The notes beneath the pieces were generated by a model that was not told the DNA's origin, made no database searches, and was given only the letters and a program-made list of their open reading frames with translations. DNA of 64,000 nt. It comes from Chloroflexota bacterium (GTDB lineage: Bacteria > Chloroflexota > Limnocylindria > QHBO01). The stretch is from NCBI GenBank assembly GCA_040902225.1, contig JBBDXT010000004.1, positions 178,060 to 242,059 on the forward strand, given 5' to 3'. Position 1 is the first letter of the stretch, and the number at the start of each line of letters is the position of its first letter. Below, piece after piece: positions 1 to 6,760 of this stretch. A program made the translations under genes and the position numbers.

Positions 1-559
1 GTAGGAAGAGGTCGATCGTAGCGAACATCCCCAGACCTGCGGCACCCTGGAGGCTGGGCAGTCCAAGGACGCTGTGATAACGACGTTGTATGAGCGCGAT
101 CCGCCCGATGTCGTCGAGAACCTCGAAGGCATGGAACCGGTCAGCATCAAGGTCACGCAGCAGTCGCATGCAGTAGGCATGGATTGTGCCGACATACATG
201 CTGCCGAGTGTCGCATCCACCCCGGCTGGCGTGATCCGCGCGACCCATTCGCGTATGCGAAACTTCATCTCCTCGGCCGCACGCTCGGTGAAGGTGAACG
301 CCACGATCTGATCCTTGGACACGCCGTCGACGCCAACCCACCAGGCGACGCGGCGCGCCATCACCTCCGTCTTGCCGGAGCCCGCGCCTGCGATGACCAA
401 GACGCGTCGCCGCTCCGACTCGACGGCGCGGACTTGTTCATCGGCGGTCAGGTCCGCAAGGAGAAGCGCGGCGATCGCTCCCCGCCGGTCCGCGAGCGTT
501 CCCGGTTCTTCAGTCACAGACCTCACCCCGTCAGGCTGCCACGGTGTTCGTTTGGTCAT
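1..559 (-). CDS. UvrD/Rep-family ATP-dependent DNA helicase, N-terminal part (cut by window edge)
   Basis: Reading from an ATG at 559 toward the left edge gives 186 codons without a stop. A Walker A motif GAGSGKT lies near residue 58, preceded by the LTADEQVRAV segment that corresponds to the Q-motif region. It is followed by VAFTFTERAAEEMKFRI (motif Ia region) and GTIHAYCMRLLR (motif Ib region). This is the 1A domain of a superfamily 1 UvrD/PcrA/AddA-like helicase, which translocates 3'-5' on single-stranded DNA in repair or plasmid and element maintenance. The motor and C-terminal domains lie outside the window, so UvrD, AddA-like and element-encoded helicases cannot be told apart. GTG codons a little downstream are alternative starts. 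Confidence 0.85.
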   Translation of the reverse strand, partial: MTKRTPWQPDGVRSVTEEPGTLADRRGAIAALLLADLTADEQVRAVESERRRVLVIAGAGSGKTEVMARRVAWWVGVDGVSKDQIVAFTFTERAAEEMKFRIREWVARITPAGVDATLGSMYVGTIHAYCMRLLRDLDADRFHAFEVLDDIGRIALIQRRYHSVLGLPSLQGAAGLGMFATIDLFL

Positions 560-805
560 TCGACCGCCCGACGAGTCTCATACGGAAACAACCCCTAGTT
601 GACCGGCACCACCGTACTCCAGTCTGCGCTCGGGTCGTGCCAGCTCGGGTGTCACCGCCCTTGGAAGTGGCTTGATCCGGCTCCGTCGGAACACAGTCCC
701 GAAATGACCTCCCTTTGAGCCGACCGAGAGCTGGGCGGCGCTCAGCACGAATGGGCCCGGTCTTGGGGGTTCCCCTTTTGAGACGGGTCTCGTCCAGCGA
801 CGGCG

Positions 806-811
806 TACGAT
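806..811 (+). promoter_or_regulatory. -10 element of a leaderless-type promoter
   Basis: TACGAT stands 6 nt before the ATG at 818, with no Shine-Dalgarno sequence between. The same TAnnnT-(5-10 nt)-start layout recurs before many genes of this window, so transcription probably begins at or next to the start codon. Confidence 0.5.
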
Positions 812-817
812 TCGGAC

Positions 818-1222
818 ATGGGTAACGACCTACCGACGGGCCCCGCGGTGCCATTCCCAGACGGCGGGGGGCGACGTCGGCAAGTGGTGTCGTGGTCTCG
901 CAGCCCGCGCGCCATCGCGGCCATCGCGCTGCTGGCTGGCCTAGCGGCCGGGATCACGCACTACCTCGCCTGGGCTTGGATTCGTCCCATGCCGGCGTAC
1001 CTGCCGACTTACCGACCCGACCCAGAGTTTTGCCTGATTTTCACGCGGACACCGCAGTCATACGGCAACGTAGATCGCGTGCCGTGCTCGAGTCTTGGCT
1101 ATCTCTTGGGTTCCCCCGTCTGGGACGACGTGCTGTTCGCCGGGCTGGTCGCGGTCGTCGGGTACTTCCTCTTGGTCGGTCTCATCCTCTCAGTTCGAGC
1201 CATTCGGGGACCGAGCCGGTGA
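818..1222 (+). CDS. Small two-helix membrane protein, unknown function
   Basis: A 134-residue product with two hydrophobic segments, about residues 31-54 and 105-127, separated by a polar loop with two cysteines (C72, C90). Both ends should therefore lie on the same side of the membrane. I do not recognise the family. The start is supported by a TACGAT hexamer 6 nt upstream. The stop codon overlaps the GTG of the next gene (GTGA), so the pair is probably co-translated. It lies between a truncated helicase and a recombinase module, a likely accessory region. Confidence 0.55.
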   Translation: MGNDLPTGPAVPFPDGGGRRRQVVSWSRSPRAIAAIALLAGLAAGITHYLAWAWIRPMPAYLPTYRPDPEFCLIFTRTPQSYGNVDRVPCSSLGYLLGSPVWDDVLFAGLVAVVGYFLLVGLILSVRAIRGPSR

Positions 1223-1479
1223 GGAAGCGATGGACGATCTCGGTCACCTACCGCGGAGGTCCGATGGACGGACAAACCGAGGAAATCACGGACCTCACGG
1301 CGGAAACCCGCCCTGACATTCTCTTTGTGTTTCACGAGCACGTCTTCTCTGACCGGACGCGAGACAGGCGCTTCCGGGGAGCGTATCGACGCCGTGAGGA
1401 CGGTCTGTGGTATCACGACGGATCCCTCGGCGCGGCCGATGCGCCCGTAGGGTCCGGCGACGGCCGCGGCGATCGGTAG
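1219..1479 (+). CDS. Hypothetical protein, 86 aa
   Basis: The GTG at 1219 overlaps the TGA of the preceding gene, indicating translational coupling. The product begins with a short beta-rich segment containing TYRGGPMDGQTEEI, followed by an Arg-rich stretch ending in a predicted strand (GAYRRREDGLWYHD). The YRGGPMDGQ motif resembles N-termini of small uncharacterised proteins from actinobacteria and phages, but no function is known to me. The C-terminal 20 residues are low-complexity (Gly/Asp/Arg). No membrane segment or signal peptide is seen. Confidence 0.5.
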   Translation: MRKRWTISVTYRGGPMDGQTEEITDLTAETRPDILFVFHEHVFSDRTRDRRFRGAYRRREDGLWYHDGSLGAADAPVGSGDGRGDR

Positions 1480-1514
1480 CGTTACGGGCGACTCCGGCCC
1501 CTAGACTTATCGCC

Positions 1515-1736
1515 GTGCGCGATAAGTCGGACGAACCAACCTCCCCGGCCGTGTTCGTGCCAGAGCGGCCCGCCCCCGGCGGCGACGAGCTGCTGCGCAT
1601 GCTGCGGCTCACGAGCGGGTATCCGGCATTGCCTGGCCTGCTCCGAGCAGGAGCATCGGGCGAATCTCGCAGCCTGATCCGGTGGGCGGCCCGGCTTCTC
1701 CTTCGGCCGGGTGGCCACCTACACTTATCCCCATGA
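1515..1736 (+). CDS. Small hypothetical protein, 73 aa
   Basis: The GTG at 1515 is preceded by TAGACT-TATCGCC, a -10 hexamer 7 nt from the start. The following gene has almost the same arrangement (TACACT-TATCCCC-ATG), and the reading frame ends in an ATGA overlap with it. The product is Pro/Leu/Arg-rich with one possible amphipathic segment (SLIRWAARLLLR) and no recognisable domain. Its last residues are encoded by the promoter region of the next gene. It may be a short coupling ORF or the remains of a longer gene. Confidence 0.3.
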   Translation: MRDKSDEPTSPAVFVPERPAPGGDELLRMLRLTSGYPALPGLLRAGASGESRSLIRWAARLLLRPGGHLHLSP

Positions 1737-1984
1737 GCGGACATACGAAGTGGAGCGAGATCAAGCGGCAGAAGGCCGCCACGTCGATCAGCGGGGACGC
1801 CTACAAGCTGGCGCTCCCGCTGCTCGTGGAGCGCGCTGGCGGTGTGGTGGAGATCAGCGAGGCCGAGTACGACGCCTTCGCTGAGCGGCACGGCGGGATA
1901 CGCGAGGTCGCGGTGCAGATCAACCGGACTGCGGCGGGCCTGCGGCTGACGATCGTGCACAAGGAGCGGCCGCCGCTCAGCTGA
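1733..1984 (+). CDS. Small hypothetical protein, 83 aa
   Basis: The ATG at 1733 overlaps the preceding stop and is preceded by TACACT at 7 nt. The N-terminus MSGHTKWSEIKRQKAA looks like the start of YebC/PmpR proteins, but the rest does not match and the protein is only a third of YebC's length. The middle (LPLLVERAGGVVEISEAEYDAFAERHGGI) and end (VAVQINRTAAGLRLTIV) suggest a small alpha/beta fold. Function unknown; soluble and cytoplasmic by composition. Confidence 0.5.
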   Translation: MSGHTKWSEIKRQKAATSISGDAYKLALPLLVERAGGVVEISEAEYDAFAERHGGIREVAVQINRTAAGLRLTIVHKERPPLS

Positions 1985-2041
1985 GTGCCGTCACTTAGGT
2001 TCATTCTCAGCCGTGTGAGTGGGTTCGCGAGGAGACGGAAG

Positions 2042-2337
2042 ATGGGTGATCGCGGCGCAGAGTTCTGGGTGACCTGGCTCATTCTGGCGGCGATCATCGG
2101 AGCAATCTCGAACTCACGTGGCAAAGGCTTCTGGGGCGGGTTCCTGATCTCGCTCATCCTGAGCCCGCTGATCGGCCTGTTGGTTGTGCTATTCAGCGGA
2201 GACGGCCAGAAACGGGCCCCTGCTGGCAGTGCAAGGAGCAGGTCATTGTGGGCGCCGCTAAGTGCAAACACTGCGGGGCTATGCCGAGCAGGCGCTCCGC
2301 CGCCTGGGGGATGGGTTGCGAAAGCGACGGCAGGTAG
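2042..2337 (+). pseudogene. Frameshifted membrane protein with C-terminal zinc ribbon
   Basis: From the ATG at 2042 the first frame encodes two hydrophobic helices (about residues 8-22 and 30-51) of the type found in short membrane proteins. At a CCCC run (2217-2220) the coding pattern moves to another frame. From 2221 that frame reads CWQC, then ten residues, then CKHCG, and ends at a TAG at 2335. This C-x2-C-x10-C-x2-C zinc ribbon is the usual C-terminal partner of such membrane segments. Read without the shift, the first frame instead continues into Ser/Ala/Arg-rich nonsense to 2410. The break is either a real frameshift, a sequencing error at the C run, or a -1 slip. It lies among small accessory genes. 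Confidence 0.6.
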
Positions 2338-2385
2338 CACCGAGCGGGTAGCCGAAGAGCCGTGCACGGCCCTACGCTTGGTGAC

Positions 2386-3018
2386 GTGCTCCCAGACACT
2401 GATGAGGTAATCGCCGAGCTTGTCCGTTTGCGAGACGCCGCGGAGGCCGGAACCGACGATTCGATCACGTTCCTGGGCGGGGAGCTCAGGATCGCGGTCT
2501 ATTCGCTGGTCCAGGGACACGATGCAATCGCGCGAGGCGAGATCATTGGGGCCTTGCACTACCTTCGTCTGCTCTCCGAGACAACGATCCGGGTTCGATG
2601 GATGGGCGGAGACGAAGACGTTGCAGACGATCGTGGGCGACCTATCGCAGATATGGCGACTATTCGGTCGCGCGCAAGTTCGTTGCAAAAGCGTGACCTA
2701 AAGATGTTGGCGGCAGCTCAACGCGCAATCGCTGAGATCGGGCACGGTGATCCTGACCTGTCTGATGCGTTGGTGGCCATGGCCGACGCGATCGACGGGG
2801 CGGAGGCGCCTTGGAGCATCAAGAGCCTGGCCACGTCGAAGAGTGGCCTCTCGGCCTATGCCGGACATCGCCTCTGCTCGGCGCTCATTCACCCCGGTCG
2901 CGCCATGCGTCGCGGGACCCTCATGCCGCGGGACCGCATCGGCGCCATGCTTGCGGAGGTGGGATTCTTGTGCGCGGCATGGGGTGACGCGGCACTTCGT
3001 GCGTCTCATGCGCAATAG
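2386..3018 (+). CDS. Hypothetical helical protein, 210 aa
   Basis: A predominantly alpha-helical soluble protein. The segment ALHYLRLLSETTIRVRWM followed by repeated Ala-rich helices resembles uncharacterised proteins of the DUF5677 type, which I suggest only weakly. The GTG at 2386 is preferred because TACGCT stands 7 nt upstream, the spacing seen for other genes here. An in-frame GTG at 2362 would add eight residues. No membrane segment, signal peptide or catalytic motif is visible. It is the last gene before the regulator-recombinase module, from which it is separated by 276 bp with no recognisable gene (one GC hairpin near 3099-3113). Confidence 0.55.
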   Translation: MLPDTDEVIAELVRLRDAAEAGTDDSITFLGGELRIAVYSLVQGHDAIARGEIIGALHYLRLLSETTIRVRWMGGDEDVADDRGRPIADMATIRSRASSLQKRDLKMLAAAQRAIAEIGHGDPDLSDALVAMADAIDGAEAPWSIKSLATSKSGLSAYAGHRLCSALIHPGRAMRRGTLMPRDRIGAMLAEVGFLCAAWGDAALRASHAQ

Positions 3019-3278
3019 AGTCAGGGCCAGCCTGGCAGACGACGCTCGTGCGAGTAGGGCCCGGGGCGCTGGGCCTCGGGTAGCATCGCAGTAGCAACAG
3101 GGGCGAACGGCCCCGATTAGTGGGAGTCTCGTATCAGTGACGTTGAGCGCGTTGGACGCACCGGCGGACGTTCGCGGACACTATGGCGGGGACTGCAAAA
3201 CCGCGTACACCGGTCTCCCGTCGCAGCGGGGCTTGGGGGCGTGCTGGACCCCCGTTTGCGGCCTTGCGTGGATGCAGT

Positions 3279-3296
3279 ATGGTATGTACATTCCAT
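3279..3296 (+). promoter_or_regulatory. Near-perfect 18-bp palindrome over the start codon of the RHH regulator (candidate operator)
   Basis: ATGGTATGTACATTCCAT is an inverted repeat with a single mismatched pair (T3283/T3292), centred on the GTAC at 3286-3289. It includes the first bases of the ATG at 3295 and a weak -10 (TATGGT, 3278-3283). Binding here would block both transcription and initiation. Since the gene begins with a ribbon-helix-helix domain, autorepression is the simplest reading. Confidence 0.5.
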
Positions 3297-3909
3297 GCCA
3301 CGCCGACGATCTGCAGAACCTCGCTACCGCCGCCGCGTCGTGCTGGAACTGACGCCGGACGAGTCGAGCGTCCTTGACAGCCTTGCCGATCGCCACGGCA
3401 CCATTCGCGGCGCAGTCCTTGCCGGTCTGCGCGAGCTGGAGGCGAACCGCAACGCCGCTCTGGAGGCGCAGGCGGCTGACTTGAGCAAGCGGCTTGAAAG
3501 CGCCGAACGAGACGTGCAGGCTGAGCGCGATCAGTCGACGGCGGAGGTCGCCGCACTCAACGAGGAGCTCGCCGCCAGCCGTACGGCACTCAAGCTCGCA
3601 CAGGGGCAGACCAAGGAGGTCCGGGCCGACCTGCGCGAGACGAGGGCCAAACAGTCCAACCAGACGGCCGCGCGGCGTGCGGCAGAGGCAGCTCGTCAGG
3701 CCGCCGAGGCCCTCCGCGTCCACTACGCCTATTGCGCGACCTGCGACAAGCTGGTGCCCGAGGCGGAATGGGCTGAGCAGCCCTGGGGCAATGGGTTCGC
3801 CACCTACCACAAGGCCCACCCGTTCCGCGAGAAGAATGGCGGCCTCCTCGGCCAGCCGGCGACCGTGTTGTTCTGGCGCGGGCGGTCGACTGCCGATGGC
3901 ACCCAATGA
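3295..3909 (+). CDS. Ribbon-helix-helix DNA-binding protein with long coiled coil and C-terminal Cys motif
   Basis: A 204-residue protein in three parts. Residues about 10-50 (RVVLELTPDESSVL, then a second helix TIRGAVLAGLRELE) fit a ribbon-helix-helix fold: one strand for DNA contact and two helices. Residues about 50-145 are a heptad-rich coiled coil dominated by Glu, Ala, Arg and Gln. The end carries CATC and a short His/Trp/Phe-rich region that could bind a metal or a partner. The ATG at 3295 is chosen because the RHH strand begins shortly after it. The 18 upstream codons would have to cross the palindrome at 3279-3296. The stop overlaps the next gene (ATGA). It heads the recombinase module and probably regulates it; a segregation-type protein is an alternative. 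Confidence 0.65.
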   Translation: MPRRRSAEPRYRRRVVLELTPDESSVLDSLADRHGTIRGAVLAGLRELEANRNAALEAQAADLSKRLESAERDVQAERDQSTAEVAALNEELAASRTALKLAQGQTKEVRADLRETRAKQSNQTAARRAAEAARQAAEALRVHYAYCATCDKLVPEAEWAEQPWGNGFATYHKAHPFREKNGGLLGQPATVLFWRGRSTADGTQ

Positions 3910-4151
3910 GGGCCGACCGGAGGCCCAACGCCGCGGACTCGCTCCCGAGCATCAGTGCCGGCGCCTTGCTGATCCTGCTGCTCCTTATCCTCTTCGCTGG
4001 CCGCACTCGGCGCCAGGCGGCGGGTGGCATTCGGGTCGCGACGCCGGCCTTCGTCCCGCTCGCCCAGGATGCAGCGAGCCAAGTTGCCAGCGAGCTAGGG
4101 GCAGCGGTCGGTGAGCTGCTCGACGCCGAGCGCCGCCGGAGTGAGGGCTAA
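3906..4151 (+). CDS. Small single-pass membrane protein, 81 aa
   Basis: ATGA overlap with the regulator gene and a 1-bp gap before the recombinase gene place it firmly in the same transcript. Residues about 16-31 form one strongly hydrophobic helix (GALLILLLLILFAG) followed by Arg residues, so the C-terminal 50 residues are probably cytoplasmic. They form an Ala-rich amphipathic helix (AASQVASELGAAVGELLDAERRR). I do not recognise the family. Its conserved place between regulator and integrase suggests a role in the element rather than in the host, but nothing in the sequence shows which. Confidence 0.6.
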   Translation: MRADRRPNAADSLPSISAGALLILLLLILFAGRTRRQAAGGIRVATPAFVPLAQDAASQVASELGAAVGELLDAERRRSEG

Positions 4152-4152
4152 G

Positions 4153-5709
4153 GTGAACGGCACGTCGCGTAGGGTGGCGCTCTACACCCGGATCTCAACC
4201 GACGAGGTCAACCAGCCCTACTCGCTCGGCGCCCAGCGCGACCGGCTGGAAGCCTACGTCGCTGCCCAGCCGGGCTGGCAGATCGTGGCCCACTACGAGG
4301 ATCGCGCGTCTGGCAAGAGCCTGGAACGGCCGGCACTGGCTGCCGCAAGGCGCACGGCGCGGGCGGGCCAATACGACCTGCTCCTCGTCTTCCGCGTCGA
4401 CCGCCTGTCGCGCAATCTCGGGCAACTGGCGGTGCTGATCGAGGAGCTGGAGGGCGCGCGGGTCGCCTTCCAGTCGCTGTCCGAGCCGTTCGACACCACC
4501 ACCCCGGCGGGGCGGATGATGCTGCAGATGCTGGGCGTATTCGCCGAGTTCGAGCGGGCGTCAATCATCGAGCGCATCGGTGCCGGCATGGAGCGCAAGG
4601 CCCGTCGCGGGGAATGGACGGTCGGCAGTTACCCGTATGGCTACCATCGCGGCCCCGACGGCCCGGGCCTGACCCCCGACCCAGCCGCCGCTCAGGTCGT
4701 GCGCGACGTCTTCGACAGGTACGTCACCCACCACCAAGGCAGCGGGGCGATCGCGGCCTGGCTCAACGCACGCCGTCTGCGCACCACCCGGGGCGGTCCC
4801 TGGACCCGAGCTTCGGTCCTCAAACTGCTCGGCAACCGCGTCTATCGCGGCGAGGTGCCGTTTCGCCGGAGCTGGCATCCCGGGCAGCACCCCGCACTGG
4901 TTGATGCCGACCTGTTCGAGGCCGCCCAGCGTCTGCGGGCGGGTCGCGCCCGCTCGCCAGCCCAGCGGCGCACCAACGCCAGCCCGTTCCTGCTCAGCGG
5001 CCTGCGCTTGGTCTGCGACCGGTGCGGGAGCCCGCTGGTCGGCACGGCCGCCCACAACCGGTCCCGCCGCTACGACTACTACACCTGCACCACTCGATCA
5101 CGGCATGGCACGGCTGCCTGCGACCAGGACCGTCTGCGTCGCGACCAGCTCGAAGCTGCGGTCCTCGGCCAGCTCGCCGAGGTCTACGCCAACACCACGG
5201 TGTTGCGGCAGGCGCTCGACGCGGCGGATCAACAGTGGCGCGCGGAGGAGGGAACCCGGCGCGGTCGGCTTGCGGCCCTCGCTGTAGAGCGCGTCGACTT
5301 GGAGCATCGGCTGCAGCGCTACCTGGTCGCCTTCGAGGAGGGACGCCTCCGCCCGGAGACGGCGCAGAGCCGCATCGGCACCATCGAGGCCCGATTGGCG
5401 GTGATCGGTGGCGAGGAGGCGCAGTTGGTGACCGAAACAGATGCCGGCGACTGGGGACCGCCCGATCTCGACTTCGCCGCGGCATTGCTCGGGGTATCGC
5501 TCGACGCGATCCTCGCCCACCAGCTGCCTCCTGAGCGCAGCAAGGCACTCCTAGCGCAACTCATCGAGGAGGTGCGCGTCGTCTCGGGCCAGGACGTGCG
5601 AGTCACATACCGCGTGCCGCCCGAGGTTCGCTTACCGGATGGAATGGTGGAGATGAGGGGACTCGAACCCCTGACCCCTGCGATGCGAACGCAGTGCTCT
5701 CCCGGCTGA
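4153..5709 (+). CDS. Large serine recombinase (site-specific integrase family)
   Basis: From the GTG at 4153, one base after the preceding stop, the protein is about 518 residues, typical of large serine integrases. The N-terminal resolvase domain shows YTRIST with the catalytic serine near residue 15, then DRLSRNL and the long E-helix (FAEFERASIIERI). A Recombinase domain follows (GAIAAWLNARRLRTTRGGPW), then a zinc ribbon with CDRCG and CTT...C spacing, then a coiled coil. The last 21 residues (MVEMRGLEPLTPAMRTQCSPG) are read from the antisense of the tRNA-Ala gene. The gene therefore ends in, or was fused to, the tRNA by integration. The host or ancestral C-terminus probably ended near residue 495. 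It would catalyse integration and excision of the element to its left. Confidence 0.88.
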   Translation: MNGTSRRVALYTRISTDEVNQPYSLGAQRDRLEAYVAAQPGWQIVAHYEDRASGKSLERPALAAARRTARAGQYDLLLVFRVDRLSRNLGQLAVLIEELEGARVAFQSLSEPFDTTTPAGRMMLQMLGVFAEFERASIIERIGAGMERKARRGEWTVGSYPYGYHRGPDGPGLTPDPAAAQVVRDVFDRYVTHHQGSGAIAAWLNARRLRTTRGGPWTRASVLKLLGNRVYRGEVPFRRSWHPGQHPALVDADLFEAAQRLRAGRARSPAQRRTNASPFLLSGLRLVCDRCGSPLVGTAAHNRSRRYDYYTCTTRSRHGTAACDQDRLRRDQLEAAVLGQLAEVYANTTVLRQALDAADQQWRAEEGTRRGRLAALAVERVDLEHRLQRYLVAFEEGRLRPETAQSRIGTIEARLAVIGGEEAQLVTETDAGDWGPPDLDFAAALLGVSLDAILAHQLPPERSKALLAQLIEEVRVVSGQDVRVTYRVPPEVRLPDGMVEMRGLEPLTPAMRTQCSPG

Positions 5710-5720
5710 GCTACATCCCC
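5645..5720 (-). tRNA. tRNA-Ala (anticodon CGC)
   Basis: On the minus strand the 76 nt fold as a standard cloverleaf. The acceptor GGGGATG pairs with CATCTCC (one G-T), the D arm is GCTC/GAGC, and the anticodon stem is CTGCG/CGCAG with loop TTCGCAT (anticodon CGC, codon GCG). There is a 5-nt variable loop and a T arm AGGGG/CCCCT with TTCGAGT. Discriminator A is followed by an encoded CCA (5645-5647). Its 3' half overlaps the end of the recombinase reading frame on the other strand. Confidence 0.95.
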
Positions 5721-5732
5721 ACGAGCCGAGGC

Positions 5733-5762
5733 AGTATATCAGCGCCCTTTGGGGGCTTCCCA
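5733..5762 (-). promoter_or_regulatory. Promoter of tRNA-Ala
   Basis: On the minus strand TTGGGA (5762-5757) and TATACT (5738-5733) are separated by 18 bp and lie 12 bp before the tRNA 5' end. The -35 hexamer occupies the same bases as the -35 of the divergent imuA promoter. Confidence 0.55.
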
Positions 5763-5785
5763 AACTAGAACATCTGTTCTATCAT
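5757..5785 (+). promoter_or_regulatory. SOS (LexA-type) promoter of the imuA operon
   Basis: AGAACATCTGTTCT (5767-5780) contains GAAC-N4-GTTC, the LexA box of Gram-positive and actinobacterial type. It lies between a -35 TTCCCA (5757-5762) and a -10 TATCAT (5780-5785) spaced by 17 bp, so LexA would cover the promoter spacer. The ATG of imuA is 10 nt after the -10, implying a leaderless or nearly leaderless transcript. The dnaE2 promoter at 19972-20000 has the same layout. Confidence 0.85.
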
Positions 5786-5795
5786 CGGTTGGGCC

Positions 5796-6578
5796 ATGAC
5801 CGATGCCGCACGGCCCATCCGACCCCTCCCCGAGCTCCTCGAGGCGCTCCGCGATTACGGGCTGCGGCGCGGGATTGACCCCGGACCGATGGTCGCCGCC
5901 AACCCCCTTCCCACCGGTCAGCCGGGGCTCGATGCGGCGCTGCGCAGCGGCGGCTGGCCGCGCGGCGCCCTGGCCCTGCTCGATGCCCCGCCCGGCGGTG
6001 GCGCCACCAGCCTGGCGCTCGGATCGCTGGCCGCCTGCCAGGCAGCGGGCGGGCAGGTCGCCTGGCTCGACCCTGCTGGTCGCTTCGATCCGGCGACTGC
6101 GGCTCGGCTCGGCGTCGAGCTGGAATGGCTGCTGGTCGTCCGTCCCGCCGATCCCGCCGAGGCGGTGGAGCTGGCTGGCTGGCTGGCCCGCAGCCGCCTG
6201 ATCGACCTGCTCGTCCTCGACCTGGCCGATGCCCCGCCGCCGCGCGGCCTTGATCGCCTGGCCGATCTGCTGCTGCGTGCCGGGGGCACGGCCCTGCTGC
6301 TGGCCGGACCTGCTGGCCGCGAAGCCGCCGGGCGCGTAGCAGGGGTTCGCGTTGCTTTGGCCCGGCGAGCCTGGCTGGCAGTGGGGGAGGACCTGGTCGG
6401 GCAGCGGGTCGAGGCGACCGTCACTCGCCATCGCTGGGCACTCGCCGGCGGCCACGCCGAGCTGGACCTCTGGTTCGGCGAGGGGCGCCGGATCGATCCG
6501 CTCCTGCACTCCGCCGCGGTCCCACGCGAGGTCCATCCCGTCGCCGAGCAGCCCGCGCTGCGTGTCATCTCGGCCTGA
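5796..6578 (+). CDS. imuA: ImuA-type RecA-like protein of the SOS mutasome
   Basis: A 260-residue RecA-fold protein. After an N-terminal helix (ELLEALRDYGLRRG), TGQPGLDAALRSGGWPRGALALL is the typical ImuA/SulA-like lead into a P-loop. Here the loop reads APPGGGATS and lacks the Walker lysine, so nucleotide hydrolysis is doubtful. LIDLLVLDLADA resembles a Walker B strand. In known mutasomes ImuA bridges ImuB, RecA and DnaE2 for error-prone lesion bypass. Support comes from the SOS box directly upstream, imuB downstream and dnaE2 14 kb away under the same promoter type. The gap to imuB (183 bp) is unusually long and filled with repeats. Confidence 0.85.
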   Translation: MTDAARPIRPLPELLEALRDYGLRRGIDPGPMVAANPLPTGQPGLDAALRSGGWPRGALALLDAPPGGGATSLALGSLAACQAAGGQVAWLDPAGRFDPATAARLGVELEWLLVVRPADPAEAVELAGWLARSRLIDLLVLDLADAPPPRGLDRLADLLLRAGGTALLLAGPAGREAAGRVAGVRVALARRAWLAVGEDLVGQRVEATVTRHRWALAGGHAELDLWFGEGRRIDPLLHSAAVPREVHPVAEQPALRVISA

Positions 6579-6599
6579 CCCTTCCCCGATGCGCGGCAA

Positions 6600-6738
6600 T
6601 GTGCGCCCAATGAGCATAACGGCCAAGAAGAGGCGTTCTGCCGCCCCAAATTGGCTCTCCTTTGCACCCAGCGAGCAGGAAGGCCAAGCAACGGAGTTTC
6701 GTGGTCCTGACTTGGTCGTTATGTGCACTGGGTGCACA
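6600..6738. repeat. Three copies of a 28-bp interspersed repeat between imuA and imuB
   Basis: Copies lie at 6600-6627 and 6661-6688 (plus orientation) and 6711-6738 (minus). The consensus starts TGTGCRCCCARTG and ends AACGRCCAAG. By hand alignment the first and third agree at 23 of 28 positions, and the first and second at 21 of 28. The inverted pair encloses a 22-bp spacer. The third copy contains a perfect TGTGCAC-TGG-GTGCACA palindrome (6722-6738). No further copy was seen in the window. Confidence 0.75.
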
Positions 6739-6760
6739 CGGGGCCACGGAGCGGCCCCGT
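6738..6760 (+). promoter_or_regulatory. GC hairpin directly before the imuB start codon
   Basis: ACGGGGCC (6738-6745) and GGCCCCGT (6753-6760) form a perfect 8-bp stem with a 7-nt loop, ending one base before the ATG at 6762. In a read-through imuA-imuB mRNA it would bury the ribosome-binding region. No Shine-Dalgarno sequence is otherwise visible. Confidence 0.55.

Follow-up and report, generated by a model that had tools for sequence, protein, structure and literature searches.

How does a tRNA-targeted island govern its own integrase? The question is raised by a 64-kb stretch of a Chloroflexota genome (G000:C4:178060-242059; hereafter the window), in which the genes for a putative DNA-binding regulator and a small membrane protein directly precede that of a large serine integrase. 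An initial annotation, made from the sequence alone, did not recognise this combination, and our search of the open-access literature likewise yielded no description of it.

Layout and recurrence of the module

The three genes lie head to tail (Table 1; gene starts and promoter positions are predictions). All relatives of the regulator align from the ATG at 3295 and not from GTG 3241, an in-frame start that would lengthen the ORF. Its stop codon (TGA, 3907-3909) overlaps the ATG of the membrane protein gene at 3906 (ATGA), and the GTG start of the integrase gene at 4153 directly follows the stop of the membrane protein gene (TAA, 4149-4151). Four genomes (window, L002, L024 and L025) have the genes in this order, with starts that overlap or abut the preceding gene, in agreement with the earlier proposal that the genes form a unit. 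These four intact triplets are all that we know of; each was found in a genome assembly, and one or more of these assemblies are metagenome bins.

Table 1. Features of the module and its surroundings (window coordinates)
Feature	Position	Strand	Basis or remark
UvrD-PD-(D/E)XK protein, N-terminal part	2..559	-	Rest of the gene, Vsr and Dcm outside the window, to the left
Apparent relic attachment end of a tyrosine-integrase island, then degenerate tRNA-Cys 3' half	3080..3240	+	tRNA half by eye
Near-palindrome ATGGTATGTACATTCCAT, candidate operator over regulator start	3279..3296	.	8/9 pairs
TATGTA, possible -10 hexamer	3283..3288	+	Read by eye from the sequence; putative
Regulator, 204 aa	3295..3909	+	Homologue alignments (5-6), AF2 model, phrog_3431 Arc-like repressor
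Regulator parts: RHH-like N-terminus (about 10-50), single long helix (37-140), C-terminal CxxC...YHKxH zinc-site candidate			
Single-pass membrane protein, 81 aa	3906..4151	+	Hydropathy, positive-inside count, alignments
Large serine integrase (Resolvase, Recombinase, zinc ribbon)	4153..5709	+	Pfam; ORF end inside tRNA-Ala
Right 33-bp attachment repeat	5618..5650	.	Left copy G000:C4:171189-171221, outside the window, 97% identical
tRNA-Ala(CGC), insertion target	5645..5720	-	ARAGORN; no insertion in other genera, with the same gene downstream

Relatives were sought in 177 genomes of the class and in 400 drawn from the phylum. Homologous triplets were found in three other genomes, all of the same class, with regulators 66% (L002/L015), 34% (L024) and 36% (L025) identical to that of the window. 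There were also two remnants, in which the regulator lies beside integrase debris (L026, 37%; L027, where the regulator lacks its N-terminus). Within this set the triplet was found only in one class of Chloroflexota. All regulator matches that reached beyond the coiled coil adjoined this integrase or its remnants, and no homologue away from the integrase was found in either genome set; the link that the initial annotation drew between regulator and integrase thus held from the side of the regulator. The converse linkage fails, L050 and L051 having integrase and membrane protein genes without a regulator. The remaining regulator matches were weak and mostly confined to the coiled coil. Those from the phylum (E about 1e-4 to 1e-3) were rejected as regulators for this reason, and the only one to reach the N-terminus, L071, falls on an ORF that resembles a MarR-type regulator. 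A viral, phage or plasmid origin was considered, and no relative of the regulator was found in IMG/VR, phages or plasmids. In a tree of the integrases, L049, L050 and L051 grouped together as a clade (100/99). Support was lower (87/88) for a clade of the distant integrases, and the tree did not unite the four regulator-bearing sequences in a single clade.

An integration module at the end of a tRNA-targeted island

The three genes are the integration module of a genomic island and form its right end. Two 33-bp direct repeats lie 12,488 bp apart, start to start, and delimit an island of ≈ 12.5 kb. Between them, on the minus strand, are genes for a C5-cytosine methylase (Dcm), a Vsr endonuclease and a UvrD helicase with a PD-(D/E)XK nuclease domain. 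The island has attL and attR repeats, an empty attB in relatives and an attP with inverted arms. Among the island ORFs scanned with Pfam, a part of all, there was no FtsK/SpoIIIE-type transfer protein or Rep protein (marks of AICEs).

The integrase has the domain set of a large serine recombinase, in the order PF00239 (8e-41), PF07508 (6e-18) and PF13408 (2e-13). Its ORF runs through the 33-bp repeat into the antisense strand of tRNA-Ala(CGC), and its last ≈ 20 codons consist of the attachment core and antisense tRNA. The attP, as read from the two ends of the island, is GGTTCGC(A/T)TAC…GGATGGAATGGTGG…GTATGCGAA(C/T)C with inverted arms of ≈ 11 bp, the left of which also encodes the integrase residues EVR(L/I). 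Neither the island nor this overlap of integrase, attachment site and tRNA had been noticed in the initial annotation.

Use of tRNA genes by this integrase group is well supported. In L104, L107-L110 and L112, the tRNA-Ala(CGC) gene next to the corresponding downstream gene carries no insertion. Decayed integrase tails stand at it in G001 (L103) and apparently in G005 (L111), a sign of repeated use of the site. An integrase, or what remains of one, stops at a complete tRNA gene in 13 of the loci examined, the isotypes being Ala, Leu, Met, Val, Lys and Ile. A sister island of ≈ 9.6 kb (L015 1095-10680, on the same contig as L002) has matching ends at tRNA-Ala(TGC) and lies in an rRNA operon, in the order 16S, tRNA-Ile, tRNA-Ala(TGC), island, 23S. 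In the rRNA operon of the window genome itself (L014, G000:C1, about 720-6760), the 23S side and tRNA-Ala(TGC) are ≈ 6 kb apart, and 18 bp of integrase-tail-like sequence stand before this tRNA, perhaps left by an older, decayed insertion. At the left junction of the island in the window (G000:C4:171189-171240; L013 3189-3243), both attP arms are present together with an integrase-like tail (RYRSPEVRIPDGMV), which suggests that a second tandem element, now lost, once stood to the left.

We also considered whether the C-terminus of the integrase could report the state of integration. The last ≈ 20 residues would come from the antisense tRNA strand in the integrated form and from the other attP arm (...MVVRVSQYAN...) after excision. 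The membrane protein and the zinc-tailed regulator would act on this tail, and membrane-held integrase and autorepression would together lock or release the island. We regard this scheme as very unlikely.

The upstream neighbour of the module looks like the relic of a tyrosine-integrase island. A block of ≈ 110 bp with GGTAGCAAC direct repeats is common to the window (3080-3240), L002 (5766-5950) and L053 (9174, minus strand). The tRNA 3' half that comes after it differs from place to place (Cys, Thr and another, by eye), and the block looks like the attachment ends of another island family that became joined beside the module. In the window, the direct repeats of this relic are GGTAGCATC/GTAGCAAC. 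The part at 3080-3130, with these repeats and a hairpin and conserved in L002, was considered as the true operator of the module. This was ruled out because elsewhere the repeats precede an apparent tyrosine integrase gene or a tRNA 3' half. A riboswitch or structured leader at 3060-3295 was likewise rejected (folding z 0.32, no Rfam match).

A regulator with a long predicted helix and a likely zinc site

AF2 modelling on five sequences predicted, with high confidence, helices at residues 21-34 and 37-140 of the regulator (pLDDT about 97 in the long helix), followed by a small beta domain at 144-196. The N-terminal segment modelled alone gave the same two helices. The long coiled coil proposed earlier corresponds to a single long predicted helix. 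The assignment of an RHH domain is less firm: the Arc-like repressor profile phrog_3431 (PHROGs) matched one member of the family with an E of 9e-4 and the window protein with 0.013, whereas Pfam returned no RHH match and Foldseek on the full model nothing significant. The RHH label, based on sequence pattern and the Arc-like profile, is plausible, with weak support. Searches of Pfam, NCBIfam and PDB gave no significant match, beyond coiled-coil noise, that would place the regulator or the membrane protein in a known family.

C147, C150, H172 and H175 are invariant in the alignment, within a conserved PExxWAEQ…YHK context. In the aligned C-terminal segment they are C11, C14, H36 and H39, identical in 6/6 sequences and of C2H2 ligand type (CxxC + HxxH). 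The CATC motif picked out at the C-terminus by the initial annotation, which had not linked it to the histidines, is therefore half of what is likely to be a zinc site.

The regulator shares its general architecture, a DNA-binding head and a long coiled coil, with KfrA-type plasmid proteins, which are autoregulators and polymerise on DNA (PMC7821693). Autoregulation over an operator, as we infer it here, would be a further likeness. One could imagine that the regulator is a maintenance protein that represses itself and polymerises into filaments by which the island is held or positioned. The head is RHH-like, however, and the Pfam scans revealed no KfrA N-terminal family; the tail carries the CxxC...HxxH zinc-site candidate, of which the KfrA abstract makes no mention. 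The regulator is linked to an integrase rather than to plasmid genes, and no replication or partition genes were found among the island ORFs scanned. A KfrA-like role is quite improbable.

A candidate operator over the regulator start

The initial annotation had noted an 18-bp near-palindrome over the regulator start and taken it for an operator. The near-palindrome is indeed there and includes the AT of the regulator ATG. Among 18 comparable 18-mers in the 64-kb window, ATGGTATGTACATTCCAT is the only one that is at least half A+T, and the chance that such an 18-mer touches the start codon is 0.0037 at the local base composition. In L024, GGTATGTACATACC, a perfect 16-bp palindrome, stands directly 5' of the ATG. 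Here 13 of 14 upstream bases are identical to those of the window, a value equalled in none of 200,000 shuffles (0/200,000), although the two regulators are only 34% identical. The position of the near-palindrome and its agreement with L024 argue for an operator. Conservation was otherwise patchy, and in this respect the earlier proposal fared only half well: L025 shares 10/14 bases, with a degenerate palindrome and an A+T-rich TATATA, and the palindrome is absent from L026 (7/14) and from the nearest relative, L002 (3/14). Similarity between L002 and the window starts only a few codons into the regulator gene, so the upstream DNA of L002 may have been replaced.

A scan against promoter consensus sequences gave no sigma-70 promoter. 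By eye, TATGTA would lie at -12 to -7 in both the window and L024 if transcription started at the A of the ATG (a leaderless transcript), and L024 has TTGCCG 17 bp upstream of it. Another reading pairs TATGGT (3278-3283) with TTGCGG (3256-3261) at a spacer of 16. With TATGTA as the -10 box, the need to keep a promoter can account for some of the conservation, and the palindrome might be nothing but a leaderless promoter, with the regulator acting elsewhere. The retention of TATATA without a palindrome in L025 fits this explanation. A -10 box leaves the matching right half (CATACC or CATTCC) unaccounted for, as it does the perfect palindrome of L024, and we consider a promoter alone possible but on the unlikely side. 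An operator over promoter and start is plausible. Given the patchy palindrome, the overlap with the -10 box and the possible replacement in L002, we put the probability of autorepression at about one half.

Serine integrases have diverse recombination directionality factors (RDFs), whose genes are often close to int. Instead of a repressor, the regulator, which travels only with this integrase, could in principle be one of these factors, or else bind att as an architectural protein and thereby favour excision. Related integrases do without it (L050, L051), and a factor made from the same operon as the integrase would tend to keep excision going all the time. The attP sequence showed no GGTATGTACATACC-like site. 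A role in directionality is therefore unlikely.

The small membrane protein as a putative integrase partner

Hydropathy analysis agreed with the one-helix protein of the initial annotation: there is a single 19-residue segment of mean hydropathy 2.55, and the excess of positive charge after this segment predicts that the conserved C-terminal half is cytosolic. The alignments define a C-terminal motif, IRL.xP.F.PL...A...LG...A.LL. The protein accompanies the integrase even in L050 and L051, which have no regulator, and in L049 the end of the motif precedes the integrase at a contig edge. With distant integrases (L065, L067, L068 and L069), the ORF directly upstream of int was among the best matches to the membrane protein profile. 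These ORFs have no membrane helix, and the matches are individually weak (E 0.017-0.11); their position directly upstream of int suggests that they are meaningful. L066 has a similar upstream ORF, by eye. Both the persistence without regulator and the recurrence of a similar motif without membrane helix point to the small protein as a partner of the integrase. The initial annotation had supposed that the module senses something at the membrane, for which we found no evidence.

Three ORFs upstream of distant plasmid serine recombinases were rejected as counterparts: the motif is missing, by eye, from the 58-aa ORF of L080, that of L082 is DUF2924 and that of L078 is an unrelated CopG-type protein. 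The last of these (L078 1013-1342, Mesorhizobium plasmid), an RHH protein directly upstream of the recombinase and not recognisably related in sequence, is a possible parallel to the regulator. Near the L050 genes (G060:C126) are a RepA-like ATPase and a large methylase-type protein, both named by eye.

An RHH protein encoded next to a small hydrophobic one also recalls an antitoxin and a membrane toxin that stabilise the island, and self-repression at the promoter is known from RHH antitoxins such as RelB (PMC2812701). This is highly improbable: the membrane protein persists without the RHH gene in L050 and L051, and the conserved part is the soluble C-terminus, common to the forms without membrane helix.

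Discussion

We propose that a single promoter at the start of the first gene would drive all three genes. The regulator, an RHH dimer held together by its long helix and probably stabilised by zinc at its end, would bind the palindrome that overlaps the putative -10 box and the start codon and so repress its own operon, which would hold down the level of integrase as long as the island remains integrated. The small protein would be made by coupled translation just before the integrase and may present its conserved, predicted cytosolic C-terminal segment to it, thereby holding or modulating the integrase at the membrane. We give this explanation as a whole, a self-repressing operon with the small protein as membrane-held integrase partner, an even chance of being right.

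Compared with Arc/CopG ribbon-helix-helix autorepressors, which the regulator recalls by its weak phrog_3431 match and a right-sized palindrome over the promoter, it differs by its long helix, its zinc-site tail and the lack of a Pfam RHH match. PLE 1 of Vibrio cholerae, an anti-phage island with a large serine recombinase (PMC6002521), likewise combines such a recombinase with anti-phage-type genes. The cargo here is Dcm, Vsr and a UvrD-nuclease, and no phage-responsive part was identified. More generally, the Resolvase-Recombinase-zinc ribbon integrase at the island end and the attP with ≈ 11-bp inverted arms resemble the large serine recombinase modules of islands, prophages and AICEs. The module differs from these in three respects: int codons double as the left attP arm and run into the tRNA, a regulator and a membrane protein share the int operon, and integration is at tRNA 3' ends. 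A survey of actinobacterial elements describes tRNA integration by serine recombinases as rare (PMC3218068). The present integrase group targets tRNAs routinely, with six isotypes, which is unusual for serine integrases.

If our explanation is true, int is coupled in this Chloroflexota group with a dedicated autoregulator and with a membrane protein. The module would then be a testable case of serine-integrase control inside the integrase's own operon, and the group would offer new integrase/att pairs aimed at conserved tRNA ends, one of them inside an rRNA operon.
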